57,767 nucleotides of DNA from a bacterium (GTDB taxonomy: Bacteria; Actinomycetota; Acidimicrobiia; Spongiisociales; UBA5794), in the NCBI GenBank assembly GCA_024228555.1, contig JAAETI010000280.1, positions 1 to 57,767 on the forward strand. The letters are read 5' to 3'. Positions 37,475-57,240 of this stretch are shown here, piece by piece (position 1 is the stretch's first letter; each line of letters begins with the position of its first letter). The position numbers and the translations under genes are program-made. The notes under the pieces are model-generated. The model was given only the letters and a program-made list of their open reading frames with translations. It had not been told where the DNA came from and searched no databases.

Positions 37475-38320
37475 ATGCTTTCACTTCTTGACTTAATCAC
37501 CCGCTCGCTACCGCCTGCTCCATGGAGCGAAGGGGACAACATCCCTTGGGACGAGCCCGCATTCAGCCAGCGGATGCTCAACGAGCACCTTGCTCAGGAC
37601 CACGACCTGGCAAGCCGCAGGCTCTCGCTCATCGACTCGCAGGTTTCCCGCTTGATCGAGACCAGCATCCCAGCCGCACCGGCCCGAGTGCTCGACCTGG
37701 CGTGTGGGCCCGGCCTCTATCTGCACCGTATCGCCGCCGCAGGACACTCTGGGGTTGGTATTGATTTCTCGCCGGCCTCGATAGACCACGCGCGATCGGA
37801 GGCGGATGCCGCCGGGTACGACCTGATCTACCACCATGACGACCTTCGTACGGCCGATTTTGGGAGCGGGTTCGACACGATCCTGCTCTTGTACGGGCAA
37901 ATCAACGTCTTCCGACGTACCGAGGCCCTGAAGATCCTGACCAAGGCGCATGCGGCACTAGTCCCGGGCGGGAAACTGGTGTTGGAGCCGCAGACCTTCT
38001 CTCACATCCGGCTGACGGGCCAAGCTCCTCCGGTCTGGAGTAGTCACGAGTCGGGGTTGTTCGGGGCAGATCCACATCTGACGCTCACCGAGAGCTCCTG
38101 GTATGAAGCGTCTGCCGTCACGACACAACGGTTCTACATCGTCGATGCGGCGACCGGTGCGGTTGAACGGCACGCCCTGAGCAGCGAGGCGTATACGGAT
38201 GAGCAGCTCACTAACACGCTCAACGATGCGGGTTTTGCAGAAGTGACCCATCGGCCATCATTGACAGGCGAGGAAACCGATGACGGCTTGAGTGTCGTGG
38301 TCTGCGCTAGAACAGCTTGA
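37475..38320 (+). CDS. Class I SAM-dependent methyltransferase
   Basis: The 281-aa product has the SAM-binding motif [12 protein letters not shown] (about residues 73-83), motif II acidic residue in [12 protein letters not shown], and the motif III/IV segments DDLRTADFG and [11 protein letters not shown]. The substrate is not predictable. AAGG and AGGA lie just before the ATG, and TTGACC about 45 bases upstream may be part of a promoter, although no good -10 box matches. The end overlaps the convergent nucS by 14 bases. Confidence 0.88.
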
Positions 38321-38966
38321 GCATCGGTGAATCAACACCGCGGAGCTCGTCGTAGTCAACCTCGATGCAATCGATGCCACGGTCCTCGGCCAACGTGCGG
38401 GCCTGCAGTTTGATGACCTGAGCGACAAACAAACCCCGCACCGGCGCCAATCGCTCGTCGCGGTTGAGAAACTCGAGATAACGGGTGAGCTGCTCGACGC
38501 CGTCGATCTCGCCCCGCCGTTTGATCTCGACGGCAACTACCTGGCCGACGGTGTCTCGGCACAGCAAGTCGACCGGGCCGATTGGAGTCGGATACTCGCG
38601 CCGAATCATCTCGAGGCCTTCTTCCATGGAGCCCGGAGTCTCAGCCAGCAGTCGTTGCAGCTCCAGTTCGACGCCGTCTTTCTGCAGGCCAGGGTCCTCG
38701 CCCATTTCGTGAGAGGTCTCGAAGTGGATCTCACCAAACGTGATCGTCAGCTTCTCCCCCTTGGGATTGGTGACGATCCATTGACCATCCTCCTCGACCA
38801 GATGGTTAGGGGCGTTCATCCAGTTCAGTGGCTTGTATGCACCACCGTCGGCGTGGATGGCGACACAGCCATCGGCCTTGATCATCACCAGGCGCGTTGC
38901 CATGGGTAGGTGGGCATTCAGCCTTCCGTCGTAGTCGACGGTGCACTCAGCAACAACGATTCTCAT
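38307..38966 (-). CDS. nucS: Mismatch endonuclease NucS (EndoMS)
   Basis: The 219-aa product is the actinobacterial-archaeal NucS nuclease, which starts the non-canonical mismatch repair used by lineages without MutS/MutL. The N-terminal DNA-binding domain spans about 1-110; the RecB-like nuclease domain has the catalytic Asp in GPVDLL (D133), Glu and Lys in VEIKR (E147, K149) and YLEFLNRDE. The last residues, LKLF, fit the beta-clamp-binding tail known in NucS. It is probably leaderless: TACGCT lies seven bases before the ATG. Sequence and length match the family closely. Confidence 0.96.
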
Positions 38967-38996: not shown

Positions 38997-40400
38997 CTAG
39001 CCGACCGAACCTTCCATCTGAAGCTCGATGAGGCGATTGAGCTCCACGGCGTACTCCATGGGCAATTCTCGCACGATCGGCTCGATGAAGCCGGCCACGA
39101 TCATCGCGGTGGCTTCCTCTTCGGAGAGACCACGACTCATCAGATAGAAGAGTTGCTCCTCACCGACCTTGGATACCGTTGCTTCGTGACCCAGATCGAC
39201 ATTGGATTCTTCGATCTCCATATACGGGTATGTGTCGGATCGGGAATCCTCGTCGAGAATCAACGCGTCACATCGGACAAACGACTTGGCGTTCTCGGCG
39301 TCGTCCTCTACACGAACAAGCCCGCGGTATGCGGATCGCCCACCACCCTTGGAGATCGACTTGGAGGTGATGAGTGAAGACGTATTCGGGGCGGCGTGGA
39401 CCATCTTGGCACCGGCATCGAGATGCTGGCCCTCGTTGGCGAATGCGATCGAAAGCACCTCACCATGGGCACCCTCACCGAGCAACCACACTGCCGGATA
39501 CTTCATCGTTAGGTTGCTGCCCAGGTTGCCGTCGACCCACTCCATGGTGGCGTTCTTGTAGGCGACCGCCCGCTTGGTGACCAGGTTGAACACGTTGTTT
39601 GACCAGTTCTGGATGGTCGTGTAGCGACAACGACCGCCTTCCTTGACAACGACCTCGACAACCGCCGAATGGAGCGAGTCGCTGCTGTAGGTTGGCGCCG
39701 AGCAACCCTCGACGTAGTGGCAGAAGGCCCCTTCGTCGATGATGATCAGCGTGCGCTCGAACTGACCCATGTTCTCCGCATTGATCCTGAAGTAGGCCTG
39801 AAGCGGCTCTTCGACGTGGACACCGGGAGGGACGTAGATGAAGCTTCCTCCGGACCAGACAGCCGAGTTGAGGGCAGCAAACTTATTGTCGTTTGGGGGA
39901 ATGATCGTCCCGAAGTACTCCTGGACATGCTCCGGGTACTCCCGAACCGCAGTGTCCATGTCACAGAAGATCACACCGAGCTCTTCAAGATCCTCACGGT
40001 TGCGGTGATAGACGACCTCGCTCTCGTACTGAGCGGTTACACCCGCCAGGTACTTGCGCTCGGCCTCGGGAATCCCCAGCTTCTCATAGGTCTCCTTGAT
40101 GGAGTCGGGAACCATGTCCCAATCCTTCGCCTGACCCTCGGTCGGCTTGATGTAGTAGTAGATGTCGTCGAAGTCGATGGTGTCCAGCATCTCGGTGCCG
40201 CCCCAATTTGGCATGGGCTTGCGCAGGAAACGCTTGTAGGCCTTGAGGCGGAAATCGAGCATCCACTCCGGCTCTTCCTTCATTGACGACATCTGCCGAA
40301 TGATGTCCTCATCGAGACCCTTTTCCGGCTTGAAGACATAGTCTTCTTCGTCGGCCCAGCCGAGCTGATAGCCGCCGAGATCAATGTCGACCGTTGTCAT
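38997..40400 (-). CDS. sufB: Fe-S cluster assembly scaffold SufB
   Basis: The 467-aa product is the larger SufBCD scaffold subunit, with the conserved [10 protein letters not shown], the [16 protein letters not shown] and EGCSAPTY segments, and the C-terminal core around [21 protein letters not shown] and [12 protein letters not shown]. The Cys in EGCSAP is the one implicated in building the cluster. From the ATG at 40400 an AAGGGACC ribosome site lies ten bases upstream; an ATG or GTG further up is not needed. It stands alone, 6.7 kb from sufD and 18 kb from sufS. Confidence 0.95.
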
Positions 40401-40438
40401 ATTTGGGGTCCCTTCAAGACGTCGCAGAGACAATTACC

Positions 40439-40444
40439 ACTATA
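40439..40444 (-). promoter_or_regulatory. -10 box for sufB
   Basis: TATAGT on the minus strand would give a leader of about 32 bases before the sufB ATG. It lies between the gene and the structured element at 40512-40620, so sufB mRNA would not include that structure if this promoter is used. A clear -35 is not seen. Confidence 0.45.
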
Positions 40445-40511
40445 GCGATAGGAGATTGAGAAACCGACGAGAAAGTGGTGATCGGCCGGAATTGTGCCCT
40501 AAAAACGGTGG

Positions 40512-40620
40512 GATACCAAGTCGGGCCGCACCCGAGGCACTTGACCTCGGATGATCTCGCCGGGACGTATGGGAGTGGGGGGAAGACCGGTTACCGTCCC
40601 GGCGGATCATCCGTGGTATC
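40512..40620. ncRNA. Candidate structured RNA (three-way junction)
   Basis: Nested inverted repeats predict one compact fold. P1 pairs GATACCA (40512-40518) with TGGTATC (40614-40620). Inside it, P2 is a 5-bp hairpin at 40521-40535 (TCGGG/CCCGA), and P3 pairs 40548-40567 with 40595-40613, 19 pairs broken by one unpaired base and closed by a 27-base loop. P3 abuts P1 directly, as in a three-way junction. The P3 loop read on the minus strand contains CCCCCC. I match it to no RNA family. Strand and expression are unknown. Confidence 0.45.
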
Positions 40621-40693
40621 AATACAACGTCGCAGGTCGGAGAAACGATCCCGAGAATGTCGGACCGGCGACCTTGCCACCCTGCTGTTGCCG

Positions 40694-40699
40694 TATTCT
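40694..40699 (+). promoter_or_regulatory. Leaderless-type -10 box
   Basis: TATTCT followed by six bases and the ATG at 40706, with no ribosome site between. It resembles the arrangements before the ORFs at 10196 and 19706. Confidence 0.5.
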
Positions 40700-40705
40700 C
40701 AGCCC

Positions 40706-41170
40706 ATGCCAGTAATCGTCATCGGAGCCGACACGACTGCGGGCCAAGCGGTTGTTGCAGCCCTACGGCCAGCGTCAGGTGAGATCCGTGTATTTGTTTC
40801 AGACGATGCAGCCGGAGCGGACTATCGATGCGCAGCCAAGGTTGCGGTCGGCGACATCTCGGACGGAACTCATGTCGGGGGCGCCGCGATCGGTGCATTC
40901 TGTGCGGTCGTCGTCGCCTGCGCCGCCCATGACACGCGAGACCGGCACTTCGCCCCCACCCCAGCCGCAGTCTTTGCCCAGTGGGCGGACGGTCTCCACG
41001 ACGCCGGCATCGGCAGGGTCATCGTCATCGGGGACCGCACCGAGATCCCCATCCCGGATCCGTTGGCCGCGATCGGTGCCGAATACGTCGTTGTCGGAAG
41101 CGGCGGGCTCCCCGTTGCCGAGGTCGCCGGTCGGGTGGCCGCGGCCGAAGCCGCTCTCCCCCCCGACTAG
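40706..41170 (+). CDS. Small Rossmann-fold (NAD(P)-binding) protein
   Basis: The 154-aa product opens with a dinucleotide-binding pattern (VIVIGADTTAGQAVVAAL) and alternates strands and helices (GEIRVFVSD, VAVGDISDG, VVVACAAHD, RVIVIGDR), as in a short NAD(P)-binding domain of the atypical SDR or NmrA type, but it lacks the catalytic half. Its role is unknown. Six bases separate a TATTCT box from the ATG. It shares a CTAG stop overlap with the convergent eis gene (41167-41170). Confidence 0.75.
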   Translation: MPVIVIGADTTAGQAVVAALRPASGEIRVFVSDDAAGADYRCAAKVAVGDISDGTHVGGAAIGAFCAVVVACAAHDTRDRHFAPTPAAVFAQWADGLHDAGIGRVIVIGDRTEIPIPDPLAAIGAEYVVVGSGGLPVAEVAGRVAAAEAALPPD

Positions 41171-42499: not shown

Positions 42500-43288
42500 G
42501 TGCATCCAGTGCGCATCGCTGTGCAACTTCACCCACAACACGCGGACTACTCAGATCTCCGCAAGGCCGTCACCGAAGCCGAGGAACTCGGAATTGATGT
42601 CGTCTACAACTGGGATCACTTCTACCCGCTGTACGGCGATCCAGACGGAAAGCACTTCGAGTGCTGGACCATGCTCGGAGCATGGGCAGAGCAGACGACA
42701 AGCGTAGAGATCGGAGCACTGGTCACCTGCAACTCTTATCGGAATCCGCAGTTGCTGGCCGACATGGCACGCACCGTCGACCACATGTCGGGGGGCCGTC
42801 TCATCCTGGGTATCGGCTCGGGGTGGTTCCAGCGGGACTACGACGAATTCGGCTACGAATTCGGAACAGCACCAAGCAGGTTGCGTGACCTCGACGCAAA
42901 CATGCCTCTCATCGCGGAACGCTTGAACAAGGGCAATCCTGCCCCGCTTCGCAAGATCCCCGTGCTGATCGGCGGAGGAGGAGAGAAGGTCACGCTTCGC
43001 ATCACGGCCGAGCACGCCGATATCTGGCACTTCTTTGGAACACCAGAGCAGATGGGGCGGAAGGCCGGAATCCTCGACGGGTGGTGCGCCAAGGTGGGTC
43101 GTGATCCCGCAGAGATCGAGCGCTCTACCCAGGTCGAGTACGACGAGATTGAGGGTGATCCCATCGAGTTTGCCGAGCAGTACTACGCCCTCGGCTTCAC
43201 CCAGTTCGTATTTGGACTCAATGGCCCCGACTACGACATGACACCGGTCAAGGCTTGGCTCGAGTGGCGGGACAGCAAGAACGCCTAG
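42500..43288 (+). CDS. Luciferase-like (LLM) F420-type oxidoreductase
   Basis: The 262-aa product is a TIM-barrel member of the luciferase-like superfamily: VVYNWDHFYPLYGDP near residue 35, TCNSYRNPQLLADMARTVDHMSGGRLILGIGSGWF in the core, and PVLIGGGGEKVTLRITAEHAD as the cofactor-phosphate loop. The cofactor is inferred to be F420. The GTG start has GGAAGGGA about nine bases upstream. Its stop shares CTAG with the convergent giant gene (43285-43288). It belongs to a different subgroup from the enzyme at 18700-19632. Confidence 0.9.
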   Translation: MHPVRIAVQLHPQHADYSDLRKAVTEAEELGIDVVYNWDHFYPLYGDPDGKHFECWTMLGAWAEQTTSVEIGALVTCNSYRNPQLLADMARTVDHMSGGRLILGIGSGWFQRDYDEFGYEFGTAPSRLRDLDANMPLIAERLNKGNPAPLRKIPVLIGGGGEKVTLRITAEHADIWHFFGTPEQMGRKAGILDGWCAKVGRDPAEIERSTQVEYDEIEGDPIEFAEQYYALGFTQFVFGLNGPDYDMTPVKAWLEWRDSKNA

Positions 43289-46200
43289 GTACTAGAACTC
43301 TGCCGTCGTCCGGTGATCGCAACCAGTGCGGCACCGGCGGCGAGCAGCAATAGTCCGATGACGGCGAAGCGGAGAAGATCCGAACCGGTGTAGGGCAATT
43401 CGCCAACGGGAACTGTCGCCGAGTCAGCGTTGTCGCTCAGGTCAAGCTCCGGCACGGGGCCGGTGACGGTCACCTCGGCGGTATTGACGATGTCATTGTC
43501 GACCTGAGCAATCACCATCGTCTCAACAGAGATCGCGGCAGACACACCCATGGTCAGATCACCGTCGAGCACGCACTCAATCGCCCGGTCCTGCACCGCA
43601 CAGTCCCAGCGGTCACCATGCGCTGCGACGACAGATAGCTCCTCGGGCACAACATCGACGACCGTCACCGGGCCCAGCGCCGTCGCCGGACCGGCGTTAG
43701 TCACCGTGATGAGGAAGTCAATCGGCGAGTCAAGCTCTGCTTCCCCGACGGCCGTCTTCACCAGGCTCACGTTGAACTGACCGACGTACCCAAAGTCATT
43801 GTCCGCAGAAACCTCACCCGACACAACGACAACATCGGTCATTCCGTCGAGTACACCATCGGGATCAAAGGTGTTTTGCACGACCCAGGGAAGTGTCGAC
43901 CGGTCGACAAGCACCACATAGTTGCCGGCGGGAACATCGTCGAACGAATACGAGCCATCGGCAGCGGTGGTACTGATGCTGATCAGCACATCGTCGGCAC
44001 TGCCGACATTGCCGTCGGGTCCCGGATCGATCAGCTGAACTGTGACGTCGGGGATGCCGTCCTCTGCTGGATCGGCGAGCCCGTCGCCGTCCTCGTCGTT
44101 CCATACGGCACCGCTGACCCCACCCAGAGCAGGGAAGGCAACCGGGGTCGGGTCGTTGTTGTCGGCGGGATCACCGTTCCCGTCGGGATCGGGATCAACA
44201 CCGTCTTGGGACACATCGGTCACCCCTGTGCCCACCGGAGAGCGTCCGGTGGCGATTGCCGAATTCCGGTGCGGGCCGAGCTCTGAGCCCGGAGTGACGG
44301 TGACGCGTATCTGAATAGTCGCGATCTCTCCGACGATGAGCGTATCGCTCCCAACCAGGAGTTGAGTGTCCGCATCGCCGTCATAGGTTGGGGAAACTGT
44401 GAGAGAGTCCGAGTCAATCGACCGCAGCTCCCAGGAGGTGGCGAGTTCAAAGGTCGCCGCCAGGTTGTCGGTAACTTGAATACCGTTCAGCGCAACGTCA
44501 CCGAAGTTCTCGACGGCAACGGTATAGGTGAGGTTGTACGAGCCATCACCATTCCCGACCGGGTCCGCGCTGACCGTCTTGGCAACGCCAAGTAATGGCG
44601 CTTCCGCAAACGAAACCGGCGTTGGGGTGTCCTCGTCGGGTACGTCATCTTCGTCAACTGTGCCGTCGTCGTCATCGCCGTCGACATCAGGATCGATACC
44701 GTCTGTCGAGTCATCGCCGACAGGCCCGTCGGTTGGAGTGAGCCCGGCTACGTAGGCGACATTCTCGTGAGGTCCGATGTCGGCACCTGGAGTCACCGTC
44801 ATCGCCAGATAGATGGTCCCAATCTCTCCGGGGTCAAGCTTCTGACCGGCAACCATCATGTTGACGGAGCCCGTTCCATCCCAAGCCGGATTGGCAAGGA
44901 GCGCCCCGTCGCTGGCCGAGAAATCTCTGGCGTCGAGTGCCGCAAACTGCGCCGCCACGTCATCAAACAGCTCGAGATCGTCGATGACCACATCCCCGAG
45001 GTTCTCGACGGTCAGCAGATACGAGACGCTGTAGGTGCCGTCGCCGTGGTTGACAACGCTGCCGACGCTCTTGGCTAGTCCCAGGACGGCAGGAGTGACG
45101 GCGGCACTGTCTTCGTCGTCTTCTGACTGATCGCCGTCATCGTTGTCCGGGGTTGAGTCCGGATCGAATTGGTCGACACCAACGATCTGAGCGACATTGA
45201 GGAATTCGCCGCTTGTCCCCGTCGGTGTGGCAACGGTGACCTCGAAGGTCAGCGTGATCGCGGAACCCGCGGCGATCGTCAAGCCACTCCATGTGATGGT
45301 GGAACCGGCCAGAACGCCTCCGTTCGAAATCGCGGTCGCCGCTACAAAACCGCTGGGGAGTTCGTCGACCACCGTGACGCCGGTAGCCGATCCCGGGCCG
45401 TCGTTCGCAACAACAATTGAGAACAAGACCGTGGAACCTGCGACTGGAGCCACCTCGTCGACATCCTTGGTCACGCTGAGATCAGCCTGCTGCGGCACCA
45501 CCGCAGAGTTGCTTTCGTCGTCCTCCGACTGATCGCCATCATCGTTACCTGGTGTGCTGTCGGTGTCGTGCTGAGTCGCTGCAGTCACCTCAGCAACGTT
45601 CCGATACTCGTTCGGGCCACCGACCGGTGCTGCCACCAATGCGTCGAAAGTCAAGGTGAGCGAGCCGCCGGAGGCCACCGCTATCCCCGCCCACGTCACC
45701 TGGCCACCGACCTCGGTGCCACCCGCCGAGATGTTGGACACATCGGTGAGGCCGGCGGGAAGGGTGTCGACGATGGCGACGTCGCTCGCATCAGATGGGC
45801 CATCGTTACCAACAGTGATGGTGAAGCTGACCGTGTCGCCAACGTTTGGCGTCGGATCAGAGACAGATTTGGCAAGGCTGAGATCGATGATTCGAGGCAC
45901 AACGGCCGCTGCGTCCTCGTCGTCCTCTGACTGGTCACCGTCGTCGTTGCCAGGAACGCTGTCAGAATCGAATTGGTCAACTGCTGTGACTTCGGCGGTA
46001 TTGACGAACTCGCCGGGGGCCCCGCTGGGTGCTGCAACAGTGGCTGCGAAGGTCAGGTCAACACCGGCGCCCGAGGCGAGCGAAGTGACGCTCCACACCA
46101 AGGTCGGATCGCCTGCTGCATCCCGGCTGTCACCGCCACCGATTGAGCCTGCGTTGTAGACAAAGCCCGACGGCAGCGAGTCAGTGACCGTCACCGCAGT

Positions 46201-49200
46201 GGCCACATCCGGCCCGGCGTTATGGAGCGAAATCGTGAAGACAACGGTGTCACCGACATTGGGGGTCGGATCAGAGACGCTCTTGACAAGGCTGAGGTCG
46301 ACCTGTTGCGGAACAACCAAAGCGTTGTCCTCGTCGTCCTCTGACTGATCGCCGTCGTCATTGTTCGGCGCCGAATCGGAGTCGTATTGATCGGCGGCGA
46401 CGACCTCTGCGATGTTCACATGGTCCGCAGGCGGCGCCGCCACAGCCGCATCAAAGCTCAGGTCGACGTAGGCACCGGCCGCGATGTCGATGCTGTTCCA
46501 GGTGACTGTTGACCCGGCAACGATGCCGCCGGCTGTTACACCGGAGATAGCCGCATACCCTGCGGGTACTGAGTCCTCAATAGCCACACCGGTGGCGTCG
46601 TCGGGGCCGGCATTGGCGACTCTGAGCGTGAAAGTGACCGTGTCCCCGACGTTGGGAGTGGCTGCGGAGACCGTTTTTGCCAGGCTTAGATCTATCTCGC
46701 GCGGGGACACCTGGGCGCTGTCCTCATCATCCTCGGATTGATCGCCATCATCGTTGTTCGGGACAGAGTCGGGATCGAACTGGTCCCCCGCGACAACTTG
46801 GGCAGTGTTCACGTATTCGCCACTTGCACCGGTTGGTGCAAGAACCGTGGCGTCGAAGGTGAATGGGACCGATGATCCCGCAGGGACGCTGAACCCGGAC
46901 CAGGTGATGGTCGATGCCGCAAACGTCCCGCCACCCGAGATGGCAGTGATCCCCGTCAGTCCCGCAGGCACGCCATCGGCAACAGCCACGCCGGTCGCAT
47001 CCGCCGGACCATCATTGGTGACGGTGACTGTGTAGGTCACGACTCCACCGACGCCAGGATTGGCATCGCTGACGCTCTTGACGAGCCGGAGATCGGCGAC
47101 TGGGGGTGTTGCGACGGCACTGTCCTCATCATCCTCGGATTGATCGCCGTCGTCGTTACCTGGCGTTGAGTCCACATCAAATTGGGTAGCGGCGACCACC
47201 TCGGCAACATTGCGATACTCGTCGGCAGGGCCGGTCGGTGCCATGACGTCCGCATCGAAGCTCAGTACGACACTTGATCCCGCCGCGATCGCCAAGCCGC
47301 TCCACGTGATCGTCGAGCCTGTCTCGATCCCGCCAGTGGAGATCGCATCGACCCCGGCGAATCCTGCCGGGACGGTGTCCGCTATCGACACTCCGGTAGC
47401 GTCATCCGGCCCTTCGTTGGTAACGGTGACGTTGAAGGTGACGGTCTGCCCGACGTTGGCATTCGAATCGGAAATGGTCTTTTGGAGACTCAGATCGATC
47501 ACTTGCGGTGCGACTGCGGCCGCATCCTCGTCATCTTCTGACTGATCGCCGTCGTCGTTTCCTGGCGTGCTGTCGGTATCGTGCTGATCCGCTGCCGTCA
47601 CCTCGGCAACATTCATGTAGTCGGCCGATGGCGAATCAACAGTGACCATAAAGGTGAGATCGAGATACCAGCCAGCAGGAATGGTGAGCCCGCTCCAGGA
47701 CACGATCGAGCCCGCCGCACCGCCACCATTGGAGATTGCGAACGGTGCCGAGTAGCCATTGGGGACCGTATCGGCAACGGCGACTCCAGTTGCATCATCA
47801 GGGCCGGCGTTGGTCACCCGGATGGTGAAAGTGACATCACTGCCAACATTCGGAGCTGGGTCCGACACAGTCTTGGCCAGGCTGAGATCGATCCGCTGCG
47901 GAGCAACAATTGCGAAGTCCTCGTCATCTTCTGACTGATCACCGTCGTCGTTGCCCGGACTGCTGTCGGGGTCGAATTGGTCGACGTCGGCGATCTCAGC
48001 AGTGTTCCTGAACTCATCCGTGACACCGGTACCAACCAGCACGGCGGCGGCAAAGGTGAGGTCCACAGTCTCGCCAGGAAGAATGGCTCCGATACTCCAG
48101 GTGAGATCTGGATTCCCGGCGGCGTTCTGGATGTCGCCACCTGCGATCGAACCAGCCTGATAAGAGTATCCGCTGGGAAGACTGTCGGAGACGAGGACAC
48201 CCGTCGCGGTATTGGCGCCCTTGTTGGAGACTGACAGTGTAAAGGTGATGACATCACCAACATTGGGCGTCGTCGTGGGAACCGACTTCACCAGTTCGAG
48301 GTCCGCCTGCCGCGGTGCGACAAGCGCACTGTCCTCGTCGTCCTCGGACTGGTCTCCGTCGTCGTTGCCAGGAGAACTATCGGGATCGAACTGGTCGGTA
48401 TCGGCGACCTGCGCCGTGTTCAGGTACTCGTCAACGACACCCGTCGGTTCATCGACAACGGCGTCGAAAGTGAGGACCACCGAGTCACCGGAACTGGCCG
48501 CCAAACCTGTCCACGAGATCACGGATCCGGCGAGACTGCCTCCGGCCGAGATCGCCGACGCCGCGGAGTATCCGGCAGGGATCACATCGGTGACCTGAAT
48601 CCCGGTCGCATCATCGGGGCCCTGATTGGCCACCCTGATGGTGAAGGTCACGGTATCGCCAACGTTGGGGACAGGGTCGGATACCGTTTTGACCAGCTCC
48701 AGATCGGATCGTGTCGGAGTAAGCCCGACGTTGTCCTCATCGTCTTCCGACTGGTTGCCGTCGTCATTGCCAGGAGTACTGTCCGGATCGAACTGGTCAG
48801 AGGCGGTTACCTCTGCCATGTTGATATAGGCCGCAGGGGGCGCCACGACAGCGGCGTCGAACGTGACGCTTACCGAACCGCCCGCGGGCACCGTCAGCCC
48901 CGACCAGCTGACAACGCTGCCTACGACGGTTCCACTATCGGACACATTGGCGATTGACGTGTAGCCGTTGGGCACTTGGTCACTCACCGCCACACCGGTG
49001 GCCGCATCGGGTCCGGCGTTGTTGATGGTGAGCGTGAACGTTATGACCTCATCTACGAGCGGAGTCGTGTCGGAGACTGCTTTGACGAGCGACAGGTCGG
49101 CCACCTGCGGGGTCGCAACTGCTTCGTCTTCATCGTCCTCTGACTGATCACCATCGTCGTTGCCAGGCGTGCTGTCGGGATCGAATTGGTCAGAGGCTGT

Positions 49201-52200
49201 GACCTGAGCTGTGTTGCGATACTCCCCCGGTGCGCCTGTCGGTGCATCGACCACAACATCAAAGGTGAGAGCGACCGTTGCACCAGATGGAACGCTGAGA
49301 CCGGACCAAGTGATGGTGGCTCCAACTGCCGCTCCTCCATGCGAGATGGCCGTGATCGCGTTGTAGCCATCCGGCACAACGTCGACGACATCGACGCCGC
49401 TGGCGTCGCTAGGACCGGCATTGGTCACGGCAACGGTGAAAGTGATCGAGTCCCCAACGTTTGGCGTGGCGATCGAGACTGATTTCGCGATCTCGAGGTC
49501 GGCTTGCTGCGGAGCAACCGTCACGGCGTCTTCGTCGTCTTCGGATTGGTCTCCATCGTCATTACCGGGCGTGCTGTCGGGGTCCAGTTGGTCGGTGGCG
49601 CTGATCTGGGCAACGTTCTCATAGGAACCGGGTGGAGCGTTGACCACGGCTTCAAAGGTGAGCGCAATGGAACCGCCCGCAGCAACCGCGAGACCCGTCC
49701 AGGTCACTGTCGTACCGGCGATCACTCCGGAATGCGAGGCATTGGCAATGGTGCCGAAGCCTGCCGGCACCACGTCGGTGACCGCCACTCCGGTCGCATC
49801 GTCGGTTCCGGCATTGTCGACCGTGATCGTGAACACCACTGTGTCCCCGACATTCGGGGTCGAGTCCGAAACGGTCTTGACCAGACTCAGGTCGGCCGAT
49901 TGCGGCACGATCTGTGCGCTGTCCTCGTCATCCTCAGATTGGTCTCCGTCGTCGTTGTCGGGGGTGGAGTCCGGATCGAGGGTGTCGGAGGCGGTGACTT
50001 CTGCGACATTCTCATACTCATCGGGAACTCCAGTCGGCGTTGCCACTACAGCTGTGTAGGTGAGGTTCGTCGTTGCCCCTGATGCCATTGCATCTATCGA
50101 CCACGAGAGCGTCGGTAGCGACGCATCGTCCTGTGCGTTGCCACCTGCGATCGACCCGTTCTCGTAAGACAAGCCGGCTGGGAGGTGATCAGAGACAACC
50201 AGGTTGGTTGCGGTATCGGGGCCGTCGTTGACGATCGAGATTATGAATACGACCGGATCGCCGACGTTGGGGTTCGAGTCGGAAACCGACTTGAACAGCG
50301 AGATGTCGGCCTGAGCGGTAAACAGTGTCTCGGTATCGTCATCAGACGTCGGTGTCCCTGCCGGAGCAAGACCGACCACTGTTGCGGTGTTTTCGATCTG
50401 GCCGCCTGCCGTGTCGGTGGCGGTGACCGTGTAGTCAGCGGTGCATGACATGGTGGCGCCCGGTGCCAGGGTCGTTCCCTGAGCAGGCACACATGAGATC
50501 GGACCGAGGCTCGGCATCGGATCTGTGACGGTGACCCCCGTCAAGGTGACGTCGCCGGTGTTCTCGACATTGAATCCGTAGGTCAGTGTGTCACCAAGCG
50601 AGATGTCGCCGGTGCCATCCTCATCAGCGTTGCCTGCCAGGTACTTGTCGAGAAGGATCGAAGGGCTGCCCTCGATCGGCGTGACGACGCCGTCGGTGTC
50701 CGTGACCGGAGTTGAATTCGGGTCGACCGCGTTGACGGTCGCAGTGTTGCTAATCGCCGCAGCATCGAGATCAGCCTGCGTCACCGAGTACTCGGCAGTA
50801 CATACCAGCGTCGCTCCCGGTACGAGCACTGCAGGTTGCGCCGGATTGCAGGCGAGAGCAGAGAGCCCCGAAAGGGGATCGGAAATCGACGCTGCCGCCA
50901 ATGTGACGTTGCCGGTGTTGGTTGCAACGAATTGATAGGTAAGGGTGTCGTCACGGGTGATCCCGCCAGAAACATCTTCGTCAGCGTTGTCGGCTACGAA
51001 CTTATGGAGCGAGATCGATGCGTTCTGGTAGATAGAAACGGCAACGCTGTCTTGATCGGACACCAGCGTGGAATCCGGCGCAAGACCTTGGGCAGTCGCG
51101 GTGTTGAGGATCTGTCCTTGATCGATGTTGAGTTGGGTGACTGTGTAGGTAGCGGAGCACGTGATCGTTTCGCCGGGAGCCAGTGAAGCGGGTTGGCTGG
51201 GGGCGCAAGACAATGCCGACAAGCCGGCAAGCGGGTCCGTAATCCGCACTGCGGAAAGCGTGACATCACCGTCATTGGTTGCGACAAAGCCGTAGGTCAG
51301 CGTGTCACCAATAGAGATCCCGCCTGATCCATCTTCGTCCGCATTCGTCTGCAGAGTCTTGATGAGACTGATTGTTGGATTCACCACCACCGGCGTCGCC
51401 ACCGCATCGTCATCGCTCACATCGGTCCCGTGAGGATCGGTTCCCGTCGCTGTCGCGGTGTTGATGACAAACCCTGCATCGGCGTCAGCGAGGTCCACGA
51501 CGTGGGCGGCGGTACAGGTAGTGCTCGCTCCAGGGGCAAGCGTTGCAACCGGACATGAGACCGTTCCCACCAACGGGTCGGCTACTGCGACCGTGGCGAG
51601 CGTCACGTTGCCCACGTTCTGCACGACGAATTCGTAGCTGAGGGTATCCCCGACGGAAACGTCGCCAGAGCCGTCGTCGTCGGCATTGCCGGACATGGTC
51701 TTGGTCAAATCAATCGCGGGCTCCGCAGGGATCACCACCGAATGATCGTCGTCGTCGGAGACATCGTCGCCCGGGTCGCCGGGATCGCCACCTGGTCGCT
51801 CTGCCGCAACCGACCCCGTGTTGTCGATCACACCGTCGTCGACATCGAACTGGGTAACGGCATAGGAAGCGGTGCAAGTCATCGTGTCACCGGTGGCGAG
51901 CGATGAACCGGCAACGGGCGCACACGACAACGGGCTCAGACCAGGCTTGGGATCAGTAATCGTGACCAGACCCAAAGTGACGTCGCCGTCGTTCGTCGCT
52001 GCGAACTGATAGGTCAGGGTGTCACCAACCGAGAGATCGCCAGATCCGTCGTCATCTGCATTGTCGAGGAGGGTCTTGAGAAGCACGATTGACGGGTTCT
52101 GCGGTGGGCCGATCAGTTCGTCGTCGGTATCCGTCAGCGGGTTGCCACCGGGCTCGTCTGCGGTGACCGTCGCAGTGTTACTGATCGAACCGGCGTCAAT

Positions 52201-55200
52201 GTCGGTCTGAAGGACCGCGTACGTGGTCGTGCAAGTCATCGAGGCGCCTGGCGCCAGCGTCGGCAGCGGGCAAGCAACAGGACCGCCGGTGAGCGGGTCA
52301 TCAACAGCAATATTGCTGAGCGTGACATCACCAGAGTTTTGGACAACCATCTCGTACGTGAGCGTGTCCCCCAGCGAGACGTCGGCCGACCCGTCTTCGT
52401 CCGTGTTGGTGGTGAAGCTCTTCACGATGTTGATCGATGGGTTCTGGGCGGTCGACACAGTGACGCTGTCCTGATCGGTGACCGCACCCCCACCACCGGA
52501 ATCATCACCATTGGCGGTTCCGGTGTTGAGGATTTCGCCGGCATCAACGTCAGCTTGGGTGACGACATAGGTGGCAGTGCACGTCATCGCTGCCGTTGGA
52601 GCAAGCGAGGACCCTGGCGCCGGCGTGCACCCCAGCGGTGACAGACCCGGCAAGGGATCCGAGATGCCCACATTGTCGAGCCCAACATCACCGTCGTTCT
52701 CGGCGACGAACCGGTAGGTAATGGTGTCGCCAAGGCTGACGTCTCCGCTCCCGTCCTCATCGGCGTTGCTGAGCAGGGTCTTGGTGAGGTCGATAGAGGG
52801 GTTACGGTCGGGGAAGACAACCTCGTCGTCGCTGTCGGAGATCGGCAGCCCGTTCGGTTGGAACCCTGTTGCTGTTGCCGTGTTGTCAATCCGCCCCGCA
52901 TCGACGTCGGGCTGAGTCACGGTGTAGGTCGCGGTGCAAGAGATTGTCCCACCAGGAATCATTGTGACTGGGAGGGTGTCCGCACCGCACGAGAACACCG
53001 ACATGCCAGGCAACGGATCGGTGATGGTGACAACCGTCAACGACACGTTGCCGTCGTTAACCACATCGAACCTATAAGTGAGTGTGTCGCTCAGCGAAAC
53101 GTCGCCTGAGACGTCCTCGTCAGCGTTGGCGATGAAGCTCTTCGAGAGGGTGATCGATGGGTCCTGCGAGGTCGAGACCGACTCGGATGCTTGGTCGGTG
53201 ACATCCGCCCCGGTCACTGCGGTACCTACGACTGTTGCTGTGTTCTCAATGACACCTGCATTGACATCGCTTTGGGTGACTTCGTAGGTGGCGGTGCAGA
53301 CCATCTGCTCGCCAGGAAGGAGGCTCGACCCGGGAGTCGGGATGCAGCTCAGCGGTCCGAGACCCGGTAGCGGGTCCGTGAGGCCGACCGCATTCAGTGT
53401 GACGTTGCCATCGTTGGTCGCGACGAATCGATAGGTCAGGGTGTCTGCAAGAGAAACGCTCCCGGTGCCATCCTCGTCGGCGTTGCCTTGCAGCGCCTTG
53501 GTGAGATCGATTGACGGGTTCTGTTCGAGGATCGCCAGCTCGTCGTCATCATCTGTCACGGGATCCCCCGTTGGATCAACGGCGGTGACCGTTGCGGTGT
53601 TGGCAACCTGGCCGTCGTCAACATCACTTTGGGTGACGGTGTAAGAGGCCGCACAAGTCATCGACTCGTTCGGTGACAATGTGGTCTGCGGGCAACCCAC
53701 CACACCGCCCAGGAGCGGATCCGTCACAACGACATCAGTGAGATCCACGTTGCCGGTGTTGGTGACCGAGAAGTCATAGTCGAACGTATCTCCGGCGACG
53801 GTTCCCGCGATGTCGGTCTGCAGCGACTTTGCGAGCGTGACCGCCGGGACCGGGTTGATCGGCACGGTCTCCGCCGCGATGTCGCTCACGGGACGATCCG
53901 CAGGGTCGACTGCAGTGGCCGTTGCGACATTGTCGATACGGCTTGCGTTTACGTCGCCCTGCACGACCTGGTAGGTCGCCGTACAGGTCAGGCTCTCCCC
54001 CATCGCCAGGGCTGCCGGTTGCAACGGCAAGCATGACAACGCGGAGAGGCCGGGCATCGGATCGGTCACGGCGACGTCGACAAGATCGGTATCGCCGGTG
54101 TTCTCCGCGATGAACTGGTAGGTGAGAGTGTCGCCGATCGTGACGTCCCCCGAGACATCCTCATCGGCGTTACCCAGCAGACCCTTGCTCAGCGACAGCT
54201 CAGGAAACGCTATCGGGTCGGTCACGGAGGCGGTCGTGAAGACTGGTTGTTGTTCTGAGGCTGCATAAACCGTGTTGGTCAACTCGGTGATGTCGACAAC
54301 CAATGGGTTGGCAACCTCGACCTGATAGGTGATCGTCATTGTCTCTCCGGGATCGAGAGAGAATGGATCAGCGGGAGTCAACAGATTCGGGCTCGCCCCG
54401 TCTGCGAGTGGTGCGGGGTCGGCACTCGCATTGGTCCTGGTTTCGGGATCGATAGTTGAGGCGCTGATCACAACGTTGTCGATCATGAAACGATCGGAGC
54501 CGCCAAGGTTCGAAGATGTCACAAACCGAATCGCGGCGCCTGCGGTCAGGTAGGCGTCCAGGCTGTGCGAGGTCGGCAGGAATGCTGGGTCGCTACCGGG
54601 TCCCTCCCAGATCCCCAGCTGATCCCAGCCCCCTCCGCCATCGGTTGCCTCGAGAACGACGTAGTCATTTGTGTTGTCGAACCCAGAACGAGCGAAGTCG
54701 AAGCTGAGCGTTGCGGTGTCATAGCCGGCAAGGTTGATCGCCCGCGAGACACCCTCGCCACCGCCGTCGTTGTCTTGGACTCGCAACACAAGACTCGAAC
54801 CGTTGGTGATGATCCTCTCGTCACCGCTGTTGACCCCGTCACTTTCGTTTATCTCGGTCCAGTCCGGGCCCCACAACACGCTGCCGGTACTGCCACCGTA
54901 TCCCCCGCTCTCCATGTCATCCGCATAGGTGACAGTGGTCGTCACCGAACCCACAACGACCGTGCTCTCGGCAACGTAGGTGGTTCCCAAGGGGACAGCA
55001 TCGGCAATCGTGAACTGATCCTGCGGAGTGTTCGAGGTGTTCTCGACGACGATGGAGTAGGTGATGGTGTCACCCGGTATTGCTCCGCTGATTGGAACAT
55101 CAGAAGTCTTCGCAACGTCCAGATAGGGGTCGAACACCGGATGAACTGAAGTGCCCTCGACTGAGATCCCGACACTATTGAGCTGGGCGTTGTTGACGAT

Positions 55201-57039
55201 CGAGCTCATTCCGTCCGGAAGGAACTCGTCAAGTTGCACGTCATATGTGATGACGACGATCTGCCCAGGAACGATCGGGCCAAGATCGTAGCCGCCCTCG
55301 TCAAACGGAAATGGGGTAACGCCCGCATCGGCGAGATTCCCACCATCGACGGAGGACGTGCCAGGGACATAGGTCGTGTAGGGATCGAGGACATCGTCGA
55401 ACATGGCGGGGTTTATCGATGCCGTGCCGTCGTTGCGAATGGTGACTGTGTAGGTAATGAACTCTCCAGCATCCAACACACCGTTTCCGTTGGTGTCTCC
55501 GGACAGAGACCCAATCTTGCCAAGGGCGACCAGAAGCAATGGCACGACCGCGGTGCCCAGGTCGATGGCTGGGGAGCCGCCGGAGGCCGTATCGGGGTCC
55601 TGGCCGTAGGCGACGGCGATACGGGTTCCGTCCAACGTGTACACCTTGAGCCCGGTTTGGTCCGAGTCGTTCGTGTCGTAGAGCAGCTCCATCTGGTAGG
55701 CCACCACCGGAATGAGAACGTCATAGTGGGCGCCGTTCGCATCGGTCAGCGCACCGGTGGTCGGGTCACCGTCGTAGTCAACGTACAGATCCGTCGCACC
55801 CTCAGCGGTAACCCAGACTGGACTGCTGTTCTCAGTCGCAGGGTCGTTGCTACCCGGTCCCCAACCGACAACGGCTGCGGTTGAGAGCCTGGTCTCCGGA
55901 ACGAGGGTGAATCCCCAGTCTGAAGCCGTGTCGTCGTAGTCGACTACGACAGTGGCATAGAACTCGGTGGCGGCGCTGAATCGGGCTCCACTGGCTGGCA
56001 TTTGGTAGGTGGCGACATCCTTGGAGGCGACGCTCACCGCCGTTGAACCACCCTCGTAGTCAACAGTGACATCGAGCTGGCTGCCCGTCGGGTTGTACAG
56101 GACTACTACAGAGGGACCGTCGGTTGTCGATGTGCCCACCGGGTTGAAGTAGCTGTCTGCCCAGTCAGTAGTCGGAAGCAGCGCATACCAGCGGCCGGCG
56201 TACGTTGCCCCTACATCACCAGTTAGAAGGTCAACCTGAATCGGCCCGGTGGCGGCAATCGTGGCACTCTGGTCCAGACCAGCGACGAGCTGCGACGCCC
56301 CGGCGCCGAGCGTGAACGTCTGATCCACGATGGTGTCGCCGTCGGCATCGATTGAAACGGTTGTGCCTGCATGGGCAGCCATGATCGAAGCAGCCGTGTA
56401 TTCGAAGTTTTGGCCGAGCGCAGAATCTTCGCCCATCGGGACTTCATAGGAGGTGCCCCAAGCGTCGGTTGGATAGACCTCGACCGCTCCTGCGAGCAAA
56501 GTGCCCGGGTCGAGCGCCCAGCCCGCACGGGTGACTGCGACCGGACCGGTGGCCCCGATCCGGTCGCCGCCGTCGTAGAAGACGTCCACCGGGTCGCGAG
56601 GGTTGGCAAACACGTCGTTGATAAGGGCTGCGTTGTCACCGGCTCCGAAAGTGTCGCAAACGTCGGCAAGACAGCCCGGAGGTGCTCCATTGGCGAACAC
56701 ACTGTCTCCCCAAATCTCGGTGCTGGCCTGCGCCGGGTTCGACAGGTTGAGCTCATAGCCGTCTTCCCAGTGGTCGTAGTAGACGATGGTGCCGTCCACG
56801 GCACTGGTGACAGAGATCACTGTGTGCACGGTTTCGTGGGTGGACGCATACAGCGCAAGCGAACCGCCGCGGATGTCTTCCTCGGGCAACGGGACGATGT
56901 AGGTCTCCACTGTTGGTGGCCCCGCCTCGGCTGAGGCAAGCTGCGCACCAGGAATATCGAAAGGAAGTATCGAGGCAATGAGAACGAACGCAGCAAGCAA
57001 CGCGCTACGTCGAGGGGTCCGCCGTTTGTAATTGTGCAT
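43285..57039 (-). CDS. Giant LPXTG-anchored repeat surface protein (4584 aa)
   Basis: Predicted cell-wall protein built from beta-sandwich repeats, probably an adhesin or surface-layer fibre. From the ATG at 57039: Sec signal (about residues 1-39); an N-terminal beta-rich domain (to about 500); a first repeat-like domain with a Ca-type loop DTNGNGVLDAGE; a DUF11-like domain interrupted by a jelly-roll insertion; eleven type A repeats of about 118 residues; thirteen type B repeats averaging 134 residues; two C-type repeats; an SdrD_B-like domain (SGAVWNDEDGDGLADPAEDG); a last DUF11 domain; then LPYTG, a membrane span and a basic tail, the sortase sorting signal. No sortase gene is in the window. 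No frameshift is seen. It starts about 50 bases after a structured leader. Confidence 0.95.
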   Translation of the reverse strand: MHNYKRRTPRRSALLAAFVLIASILPFDIPGAQLASAEAGPPTVETYIVPLPEEDIRGGSLALYASTHETVHTVISVTSAVDGTIVYYDHWEDGYELNLSNPAQASTEIWGDSVFANGAPPGCLADVCDTFGAGDNAALINDVFANPRDPVDVFYDGGDRIGATGPVAVTRAGWALDPGTLLAGAVEVYPTDAWGTSYEVPMGEDSALGQNFEYTAASIMAAHAGTTVSIDADGDTIVDQTFTLGAGASQLVAGLDQSATIAATGPIQVDLLTGDVGATYAGRWYALLPTTDWADSYFNPVGTSTTDGPSVVVLYNPTGSQLDVTVDYEGGSTAVSVASKDVATYQMPASGARFSAATEFYATVVVDYDDTASDWGFTLVPETRLSTAAVVGWGPGSNDPATENSSPVWVTAEGATDLYVDYDGDPTTGALTDANGAHYDVLIPVVAYQMELLYDTNDSDQTGLKVYTLDGTRIAVAYGQDPDTASGGSPAIDLGTAVVPLLLVALGKIGSLSGDTNGNGVLDAGEFITYTVTIRNDGTASINPAMFDDVLDPYTTYVPGTSSVDGGNLADAGVTPFPFDEGGYDLGPIVPGQIVVITYDVQLDEFLPDGMSSIVNNAQLNSVGISVEGTSVHPVFDPYLDVAKTSDVPISGAIPGDTITYSIVVENTSNTPQDQFTIADAVPLGTTYVAESTVVVGSVTTTVTYADDMESGGYGGSTGSVLWGPDWTEINESDGVNSGDERIITNGSSLVLRVQDNDGGGEGVSRAINLAGYDTATLSFDFARSGFDNTNDYVVLEATDGGGGWDQLGIWEGPGSDPAFLPTSHSLDAYLTAGAAIRFVTSSNLGGSDRFMIDNVVISASTIDPETRTNASADPAPLADGASPNLLTPADPFSLDPGETMTITYQVEVANPLVVDITELTNTVYAASEQQPVFTTASVTDPIAFPELSLSKGLLGNADEDVSGDVTIGDTLTYQFIAENTGDTDLVDVAVTDPMPGLSALSCLPLQPAALAMGESLTCTATYQVVQGDVNASRIDNVATATAVDPADRPVSDIAAETVPINPVPAVTLAKSLQTDIAGTVAGDTFDYDFSVTNTGNVDLTDVVVTDPLLGGVVGCPQTTLSPNESMTCAASYTVTQSDVDDGQVANTATVTAVDPTGDPVTDDDDELAILEQNPSIDLTKALQGNADEDGTGSVSLADTLTYRFVATNDGNVTLNAVGLTDPLPGLGPLSCIPTPGSSLLPGEQMVCTATYEVTQSDVNAGVIENTATVVGTAVTGADVTDQASESVSTSQDPSITLSKSFIANADEDVSGDVSLSDTLTYRFDVVNDGNVSLTVVTITDPLPGMSVFSCGADTLPVTMIPGGTISCTATYTVTQPDVDAGRIDNTATATGFQPNGLPISDSDDEVVFPDRNPSIDLTKTLLSNADEDGSGDVSLGDTITYRFVAENDGDVGLDNVGISDPLPGLSPLGCTPAPGSSLAPTAAMTCTATYVVTQADVDAGEILNTGTANGDDSGGGGAVTDQDSVTVSTAQNPSINIVKSFTTNTDEDGSADVSLGDTLTYEMVVQNSGDVTLSNIAVDDPLTGGPVACPLPTLAPGASMTCTTTYAVLQTDIDAGSISNTATVTADEPGGNPLTDTDDELIGPPQNPSIVLLKTLLDNADDDGSGDLSVGDTLTYQFAATNDGDVTLGLVTITDPKPGLSPLSCAPVAGSSLATGDTMTCTASYAVTQFDVDDGVIDNTGSVAAERPGGDPGDPGDDVSDDDDHSVVIPAEPAIDLTKTMSGNADDDGSGDVSVGDTLSYEFVVQNVGNVTLATVAVADPLVGTVSCPVATLAPGASTTCTAAHVVDLADADAGFVINTATATGTDPHGTDVSDDDAVATPVVVNPTISLIKTLQTNADEDGSGGISIGDTLTYGFVATNDGDVTLSAVRITDPLAGLSALSCAPSQPASLAPGETITCSATYTVTQLNIDQGQILNTATAQGLAPDSTLVSDQDSVAVSIYQNASISLHKFVADNADEDVSGGITRDDTLTYQFVATNTGNVTLAAASISDPLSGLSALACNPAQPAVLVPGATLVCTAEYSVTQADLDAAAISNTATVNAVDPNSTPVTDTDGVVTPIEGSPSILLDKYLAGNADEDGTGDISLGDTLTYGFNVENTGDVTLTGVTVTDPMPSLGPISCVPAQGTTLAPGATMSCTADYTVTATDTAGGQIENTATVVGLAPAGTPTSDDDTETLFTAQADISLFKSVSDSNPNVGDPVVFIISIVNDGPDTATNLVVSDHLPAGLSYENGSIAGGNAQDDASLPTLSWSIDAMASGATTNLTYTAVVATPTGVPDEYENVAEVTASDTLDPDSTPDNDDGDQSEDDEDSAQIVPQSADLSLVKTVSDSTPNVGDTVVFTITVDNAGTDDATGVAVTDVVPAGFGTIANASHSGVIAGTTVTWTGLAVAAGGSIALTFEAVVNAPPGSYENVAQISATDQLDPDSTPGNDDGDQSEDDEDAVTVAPQQADLEIAKSVSIATPNVGDSITFTVAVTNAGPSDASGVDVVDVVPDGYNAITAISHGGAAVGATITWSGLSVPSGATVALTFDVVVDAPTGAPGEYRNTAQVTASDQFDPDSTPGNDDGDQSEDDEDEAVATPQVADLSLVKAVSDTTPLVDEVITFTLTINNAGPDAATGVAVSDQVPNGYTSIANVSDSGTVVGSVVSWSGLTVPAGGSVSVTFDAAVVAPPAAYINMAEVTASDQFDPDSTPGNDDGNQSEDDEDNVGLTPTRSDLELVKTVSDPVPNVGDTVTFTIRVANQGPDDATGIQVTDVIPAGYSAASAISAGGSLAGSVISWTGLAASSGDSVVLTFDAVVDEPTGVVDEYLNTAQVADTDQFDPDSSPGNDDGDQSEDDEDSALVAPRQADLELVKSVPTTTPNVGDVITFTLSVSNKGANTATGVLVSDSLPSGYSYQAGSIAGGDIQNAAGNPDLTWSIGAILPGETVDLTFAAAVLVGTGVTDEFRNTAEIADVDQFDPDSSPGNDDGDQSEDDEDFAIVAPQRIDLSLAKTVSDPAPNVGSDVTFTIRVTNAGPDDATGVAVADTVPNGYSAPFAISNGGGAAGSIVSWSGLTIPAGWYLDLTFMVTVDSPSADYMNVAEVTAADQHDTDSTPGNDDGDQSEDDEDAAAVAPQVIDLSLQKTISDSNANVGQTVTFNVTVTNEGPDDATGVSIADTVPAGFAGVDAISTGGIETGSTITWSGLAIAAGSSVVLSFDADVMAPTGPADEYRNVAEVVAATQFDVDSTPGNDDGDQSEDDEDSAVATPPVADLRLVKSVSDANPGVGGVVTYTVTVTNDGPADATGVAVADGVPAGLTGITAISGGGTFAASTITWSGFSVPAGSSVPFTFDATVLAPTGASGEYVNTAQVVAGDQFDPDSVPNNDDGDQSEDDEDSAQVSPREIDLSLAKTVSAATPNVGDTVTFTLRVANAGPDDATGVAIEDSVPAGYAAISGVTAGGIVAGSTVTWNSIDIAAGAYVDLSFDAAVAAPPADHVNIAEVVAADQYDSDSAPNNDDGDQSEDDEDNALVVPQQVDLSLVKSVSDPTPNVGDTVVFTISLHNAGPDVATAVTVTDSLPSGFVYNAGSIGGGDSRDAAGDPTLVWSVTSLASGAGVDLTFAATVAAPSGAPGEFVNTAEVTAVDQFDSDSVPGNDDGDQSEDDEDAAAVVPRIIDLSLAKSVSDPTPNVGDTVSFTITVGNDGPSDASDVAIVDTLPAGLTDVSNISAGGTEVGGQVTWAGIAVASGGSLTLTFDALVAAPVGGPNEYRNVAEVTAATQHDTDSTPGNDDGDQSEDDESNSAVVPQQADLSVTKDVDEVAPVAGSTVLFSIVVANDGPGSATGVTVVDELPSGFVAATAISNGGVLAGSTITWSGLTIAAGSAITLTFEVTVATPTGTSGEFLNVAQIVGVDQFDPDSTPDNDDGDQSEDDEDSAAVTPAVLGLAKSVGSVVNHGDGTYSVSYLLTVENLGDVVIDDLELFDDVAAQFAALDARDFSASDGALLANPAWDGTGSVNMMVAGQKLDPGEIGTIYLAMTVTPGADIGPHENVAYVAGLTPTDGPVGDDSTDGIDPDVDGDDDDGTVDEDDVPDEDTPTPVSFAEAPLLGVAKTVSADPVGNGDGSYNLTYTVAVENFGDVALNGIQVTDNLAATFELATSWELRSIDSDSLTVSPTYDGDADTQLLVGSDTLIVGEIATIQIRVTVTPGSELGPHRNSAIATGRSPVGTGVTDVSQDGVDPDPDGNGDPADNNDPTPVAFPALGGVSGAVWNDEDGDGLADPAEDGIPDVTVQLIDPGPDGNVGSADDVLISISTTAADGSYSFDDVPAGNYVVLVDRSTLPWVVQNTFDPDGVLDGMTDVVVVSGEVSADNDFGYVGQFNVSLVKTAVGEAELDSPIDFLITVTNAGPATALGPVTVVDVVPEELSVVAAHGDRWDCAVQDRAIECVLDGDLTMGVSAAISVETMVIAQVDNDIVNTAEVTVTGPVPELDLSDNADSATVPVGELPYTGSDLLRFAVIGLLLLAAGAALVAITGRRQSSST
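43384..43398 (-). other. Sortase motif LPYTG of the giant protein
   Basis: LPYTG is followed by a hydrophobic span (about 22 residues) and the basic tail GRRQSSST, the three-part sorting signal for covalent attachment to peptidoglycan by a class A- or E-type sortase. Confidence 0.9.
43775..44125 (-). other. SdrD_B-like domain of the giant protein
   Basis: The segment opens SGAVWNDEDGDGLADPAEDG and continues with a GSYSFDDVPAGNYVV turn, the Cna-B/SdrD_B pattern of a prealbumin-like sandwich with a calcium-type Asp loop. It sits as a stalk module just before the final DUF11 domain and the cell-wall anchor. Confidence 0.8.
45085..50310 (-). repeat. Thirteen type B (DUF11) repeats in the giant gene
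   Basis: The block is 1742 codons, thirteen repeats averaging exactly 134 residues. Each runs from a (A/I/V)DLSLVKxVSD strand through NVGDTVxFTIxVxNxGPDDATGV to a linker that is almost invariant: DxDSxPxNDDGDQSEDDED. Individual copies have diverged elsewhere, but the acidic linker is strongly kept in amino acids and nearly so in DNA. The regular spacing suggests an extended, Ca-stabilised stalk. Confidence 0.9.
50311..54204 (-). repeat. Eleven type A repeats in the giant gene
   Basis: Eleven repeats averaging 118 residues, most starting near NPSIDLTKxL and containing NADEDGSGDVSLGDTLTY, then SLxPGxxxxCTATYxVTQxDVDAG and an NTATV strand. The NADEDGSGDVS segment resembles a Ca-binding Asp loop. 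Nearly every copy has two Cys at the same spacing (about 20 residues apart, SCxP ... TCTATY), absent from type B repeats, which suggests one disulfide per repeat. Confidence 0.9.
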
Positions 57040-57090
57040 CGTGGTCTCGGTCCTCGGGAGGAGATTCACGGCTACACAGTCGGCCAACGC

Positions 57091-57240
57091 CTGGCAATGT
57101 TTAGATGTCGTAAGTGCCAGGGGAACGCGCCAGCGATCGCTCTCCCCACCATTGAGAGCGACCGCTTCTTGGCCCGCCACGCCCCGTTTCCGGGGAGTTC
57201 TTGTGATGTTGATTACCTATCGGCATCGCGGGCCAAGAAG
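57091..57240 (-). promoter_or_regulatory. Structured leader of the giant surface-protein gene
   Basis: Four stems lie in the 218-bp gap. A perfect 13-bp inverted repeat (57165-57177 with 57228-57240) encloses a CCCCG/CGGGG hairpin (57182-57195); next come an 8-bp hairpin (57137-57144/57154-57161) and a 6-bp stem (57091-57096/57115-57120), then about 50 bases to the ATG. The array could be a cis-regulatory RNA or, for the 13-bp pair, an operator or a terminator of the upstream gene. I could match it to no known riboswitch class. Confidence 0.5.

Follow-up and report, generated by a model that had tools for sequence, protein, structure and literature searches.

Comparative sequence analysis indicates that the hairpin beside sufB in an actinobacterial genome (Acidimicrobiia; Spongiisociales; UBA5794; assembly GCA_024228555.1) is an RNA family without an Rfam match, real and conserved within one actinobacterial order. 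Comparison between genomes establishes its structure, functional strand, loop conservation, single copy number and separability from sufB. On balance, the element is probably a stress-induced small RNA of the minus strand, whose C-rich loop would pair with G-rich mRNA sites in a manner analogous to that of 6C RNA. A first-pass annotation of the locus had proposed a new structured RNA, and this proposal is upheld by strong covariation and by the absence of an Rfam match.

The window, that is, the whole stretch of DNA that was analysed, comprises 57,767 nt of contig JAAETI010000280.1. The hairpin sits between sufB (minus strand) and the divergent gene that begins at 40706, and the coordinates of all features are listed in Table 1. 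The long stem, the 27-base loop and the 7-bp outer stem are present in the sequence as first described; counted from the sequence, the long stem has 18 pairs and one bulge. In a stem scan, the long stem reached a score of 19, whereas no stem in 40 Markov resamples of the whole window scored above 16; it is therefore not attributable to chance. Fold z-scores were −4.1 for the minus strand and −2.9 for the plus strand. Pairing probabilities were near 1 in the long stem, about 0.54–0.83 in the outer stem and at most 0.8 (minus) or 0.22 (plus) in the small hairpin, which shares bases 40549–40550 with the long stem. The three-way junction of the first-pass annotation stands in part: the sequences for the outer stem and the small hairpin are there, but the junction is not conserved. 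A 7-nt complement corresponding to the outer stem was found in none of six same-genus copies (0/6), so only the long hairpin is conserved. In the window's genome, the outer stem would close an RNA ending at the UUUUU run, which has no counterpart among the six sister copies. Since the minus-strand promoter-like motif is part of the element, the element is judged from the sequence to reach to about 40653.

Table 1 Features of the hairpin locus and its surroundings in the window
Feature	Position	Strand	Sequence or evidence
sufB, usual downstream neighbour	38997..40400	−	TIGR01980 (726 bits); PF01458; synteny
Separate, conserved promoter- or operator-like block of sufB	40421..40453	−	CTATCGCTATAG, TATAGT; blastn blocks upstream of sufB; palindrome
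UUUUU run, possible 3′ end in the window's genome (predicted from sequence, ~120-nt transcript)	40501..40505	−	
Outer stem, 7 bp	40512–40518 with 40614–40620		
Small hairpin	40532–40537 with 40545–40550		CCGAGG with CCTCGG
Conserved hairpin RNA	40543..40617	−	covariance-model match, 71.4 bits
3′ arm of long stem (first arm in the window)	40549..40567	−	GGATGATC (40549–40556), single unpaired T (40557), CGCCGGGACG (40558–40567)
Apical loop, 27 bases	40568..40594	−	GTAACCGGTCTTCCCCCCACTCCCATA; contains the near-invariant core
5′ arm of long stem (partner arm in the window)	40595..40612	−	GGATGATCCGCCGGGACG; in the window CGTCCCGGCG (40595–40604) and GATCATCC (40605–40612); all 15 modelled pairs covary, 51 sequences
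Predicted ECF-sigma-type promoter	40626..40652	−	−35 GGGATC (40647–40652), 17-nt spacer, −10 CGTT (40626–40629)

Several other genes were noted in the window. The gene at 40706–41167 (plus strand), called a Rossmann protein in the first-pass annotation, gave no Pfam or NCBIfam match, and its homologues are divergent to sufB in both families that carry the hairpin. The endonuclease gene nucS (38307–38966, minus strand) directly follows sufB on the same strand and is likewise a neighbour in locus L066. An open reading frame of 4631 codons (43285–57180, minus strand) contains many repeated domains and probably encodes a protein that is secreted or located at the cell surface.

Among 60 relatives searched by blastn, every genome of the same genus carried the hairpin, as did some more distant genomes, and the first covariance model was built from fifteen homologues found by blastn. 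At E ≤ 0.01, 54 of 395 genomes from the class gave a match to the model; at E ≤ 1e-4, 50 of 138 genomes from the order did, each with one copy, and these 50 fall into two families. In a phylum sample of 396 genomes, just two matches fell outside the order, both weak. Most of the other weak matches (about 22–30 bits) were not near sufB and resemble chance hits. Two do adjoin sufB, in L209 (genome G020, another genus of the first family) and L118 (a further family), and these copies appear to widen the family range slightly. The search for further copies proposed earlier returned a single copy in the window's own genome, with no extra copies there or on plasmids. Rfam searches of the window and 20 homologous loci at the gathering score, and a permissive search on the element, gave nothing convincing, and no description of the hairpin RNA was found in the library of papers searched.

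Covariation among homologous regions, the check that had been suggested for this structure, extended to the whole modelled stem. In 51 sequences, aligned by fitting to the model, all 15 modelled pairs covaried with double changes and 94.5% of cells were paired; an unfitted MAFFT alignment of the first 15 sequences already gave 13 of the 15 pairs. None of 500 shuffles reached the observed pairing, and slid registers collapsed. On the C-loop strand, G-U pairs exceeded A-C pairs by 101 to 39 (34 sequences versus 5), a count whose nominal p-value is inflated because the sequences are related. From this excess, the functional RNA is assigned to the minus strand, towards sufB; the divergent regulatory element considered in the first-pass annotation does not agree with this orientation. 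The most conserved part is the loop core CGGUCUU-C(3-7)-ACUCCC, in which about 17 bases are nearly invariant, a conservation partly favoured by the search itself as the first matches were found through the loop. The length of the C-run differs between copies by single bases. A coding origin was considered for the plus-strand frame that spans the hairpin (40475–41170) and was rejected, as single-base changes of the C-run would break any frame. The sequence UUCCCCACU, present in C4-type loops, is complementary to the AGUGGGGAA stretch of 16S rRNA, which is possibly a coincidence.

The motif G(G/A)A(A/T)(C/T)-N17/18-(C/T)GTT is found in 41 of the 50 copies having upstream sequence, with a spacer of 17 in 37; it reads GGAAC or GGATC, then mostly N17, and CGTT is placed just before the stem. 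The motif has the form of ECF sigma-H/sigma-E promoters (GGAAC/T at −35, CGTT at −10, 16–18 nt between them). Corynebacterium promoters of this type read GGAAC-N16/17-CGTT (PMC10012870), hence the same motif at near-equal spacing, whereas the window's genus has GGGATC at −35, one base off, and not GGAAC. In five same-genus genomes, GGGATC-N17-CGTT occurred at 6–12 sites per genome, versus 0–2 for the reversed pattern. The SigH_actino model found matches in all 41 relatives searched, 31 of them above the cut-off. No matching promoter indicative of sigma autoregulation was detected near the SigH genes examined; for this reason and because of the GGGATC in the window, the cognate sigma factor is one that we infer. 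Transcription of the hairpin RNA probably depends on a SigH/SigE-type stress sigma factor, with a start predicted from the promoter near 40617–40620. SigH/SigE-type ECF sigma factors are tied to heat, oxidative and envelope stress.

Most copies lie 50–250 nt upstream of sufB on the same strand, with about 400 nt between hairpin and sufB in L072. In L066, the promoter and hairpin are divergent from an inverted sufB, and the loop has diverged. In L080, the hairpin lies beside gltB and is followed by a GC hairpin, a clear −35 is missing, and sufB was not detected on the stretch examined. Inversion of sufB leaves promoter and hairpin as a unit, and the hairpin is retained where no sufB was found; an independent small RNA therefore appears more likely than a sufB leader. 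The independent small RNA named among the first-pass options thus gains support from a promoter-like motif of its own and from persistence away from sufB, a combination seen in few genomes, all of them metagenome assemblies.

The strongest competing explanation is a cis-acting 5′ leader, in which transcription from the ECF promoter under stress would extend through sufB, and the hairpin would control read-through, stability or translation of this long mRNA. The same-strand position upstream of sufB in most copies, often at 50–120 nt, is as such a leader predicts. A U-run just after the hairpin is present in 9 of 51 copies, versus 0–1 in shifted windows, an enrichment in favour of an independent RNA; most copies, the window's included, have none, so transcription may continue into sufB. 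However, the arrangements in L066 and L080 do not fit a leader, and genes intervene between hairpin and sufB in L064 (a GNAT-like gene, the promoter overlapping the gltB end) and L035 (a TetR-type gene). Moreover, a promoter-like block of sufB itself lies downstream of the hairpin, as the first-pass annotation expected in placing the sufB promoter beyond the hairpin. We therefore regard the leader as unlikely, but still deserving of attention.

Further features of gene order were observed around these loci. In many genomes (L033, L052, L069 and others, and the window), a TAcAAT-like −10 and then the palindrome CACTA-N6-TAGTG stand directly before sufB, and the palindrome is likely the operator of a sufB regulator. 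The glutamate synthase gene gltB ends just beside the small RNA in L064, L072, L035 and L080, in both families, which suggests that gltB, small RNA and sufB form the ancestral order. The TetR-type regulator gene of L035 (1504–2184, plus strand; genome G008) lies directly after the hairpin, with GGAGG just before the start used (1594), and the C-rich loop could pair with it.

For an independent small RNA, the following course of action is proposed. A SigH/SigE-type ECF sigma factor, as judged from the sequence, would start transcription at ~40617–40620 from GGGATC-N17-CGTT. The RNA would fold at once into the long GC-rich hairpin, so that the C-rich apical loop is held single-stranded, and would terminate, in some species, at a U-run immediately past the stem; in the window, it may run to the UUUUU at 40501. 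The loop would base-pair with G-rich segments in target mRNAs, Shine-Dalgarno regions being the most plausible sites, and would thereby lower target translation under stress. These last two steps are conjecture because two scans for the loop complement, covering the window's own genome and 11 genomes, gave no recurrent start-codon target.

The absence of a recurrent complementary site in the target scans also agrees with a protein-binding RNA, in which the invariant C/U-rich loop would sequester or recruit an RNA-binding protein and would not serve as an antisense seed. Protein binding is the chief alternative to mRNA pairing, and the ~17 near-invariant loop bases are more than a simple anti-Shine-Dalgarno seed needs. 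This explanation is nevertheless rather improbable: the C-run length differs from copy to copy, and in 6C RNA the C-rich loops reportedly bind mRNAs, according to a reference title cited in PMC9569102. A functional plus-strand RNA that acts as the leader of the divergent gene at 40706 has very little in its favour, for although the plus strand folds well too and the gene is divergent from sufB, the excess of G-U over A-C points to the minus strand, the conserved promoter motif is oriented the same way, and the search for the 40706 gene was without a match in many homologous loci. A mobile palindromic repeat or other DNA-level element, suggested by a long imperfect intergenic palindrome and listed in the first-pass annotation, is hardly credible given that the window's genome holds one copy and other genomes hold a single strong copy each, mostly with the same neighbouring genes, and given the G-U-bearing covariation, the invariant asymmetric loop and the lack of a plasmid match; a REP/MITE-like repeat was rejected on copy number, as dispersed multiple copies per genome were not found.

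To our knowledge, few small RNAs have been characterised in Actinobacteria and none is known from Acidimicrobiia, a largely uncultured class. The comparative signature of the hairpin RNA is unusually complete (covarying stem, invariant loop, conserved stress-type promoter motif and single copy), which makes its function directly testable, and the covariance model is a family definition suitable for offering to Rfam. Among known RNAs, the Rhizobiales small RNA Atu_C10 (RF02497) also has a hairpin with a C-rich loop, but the match was weak (13.7 bits, E 4.3), far under the gathering score of 60 and from a different phylum; the resemblance is likely convergent. No RF01066 (6C RNA) match was found on the element even at E up to 10, nor in the own genome or 40 relatives, in a search of limited sensitivity in which the C. 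glutamicum control matched below the cut-off. Membership of 6C was rejected, as there was neither a gathering-score match nor a pair of stem-loops with about six C each. As far as these tests reach, the hairpin RNA appears to be a family of its own. Like 6C RNA, it is an actinobacterial RNA with a hairpin loop carrying a run of about six C; unlike 6C RNA, which has two C-loop hairpins (PMC4046766), the sufB-adjacent RNA has one long hairpin with one C-rich loop in its 51 copies. As a tentative and somewhat doubtful extension, the RNA may be a stress RNA specific to this lineage: the sampled genomes of the order yielded no detectable 6C, and a SigH/SigE-driven single hairpin with a C-rich loop would fill a similar role there, linking stress with translation or iron-sulfur assembly.
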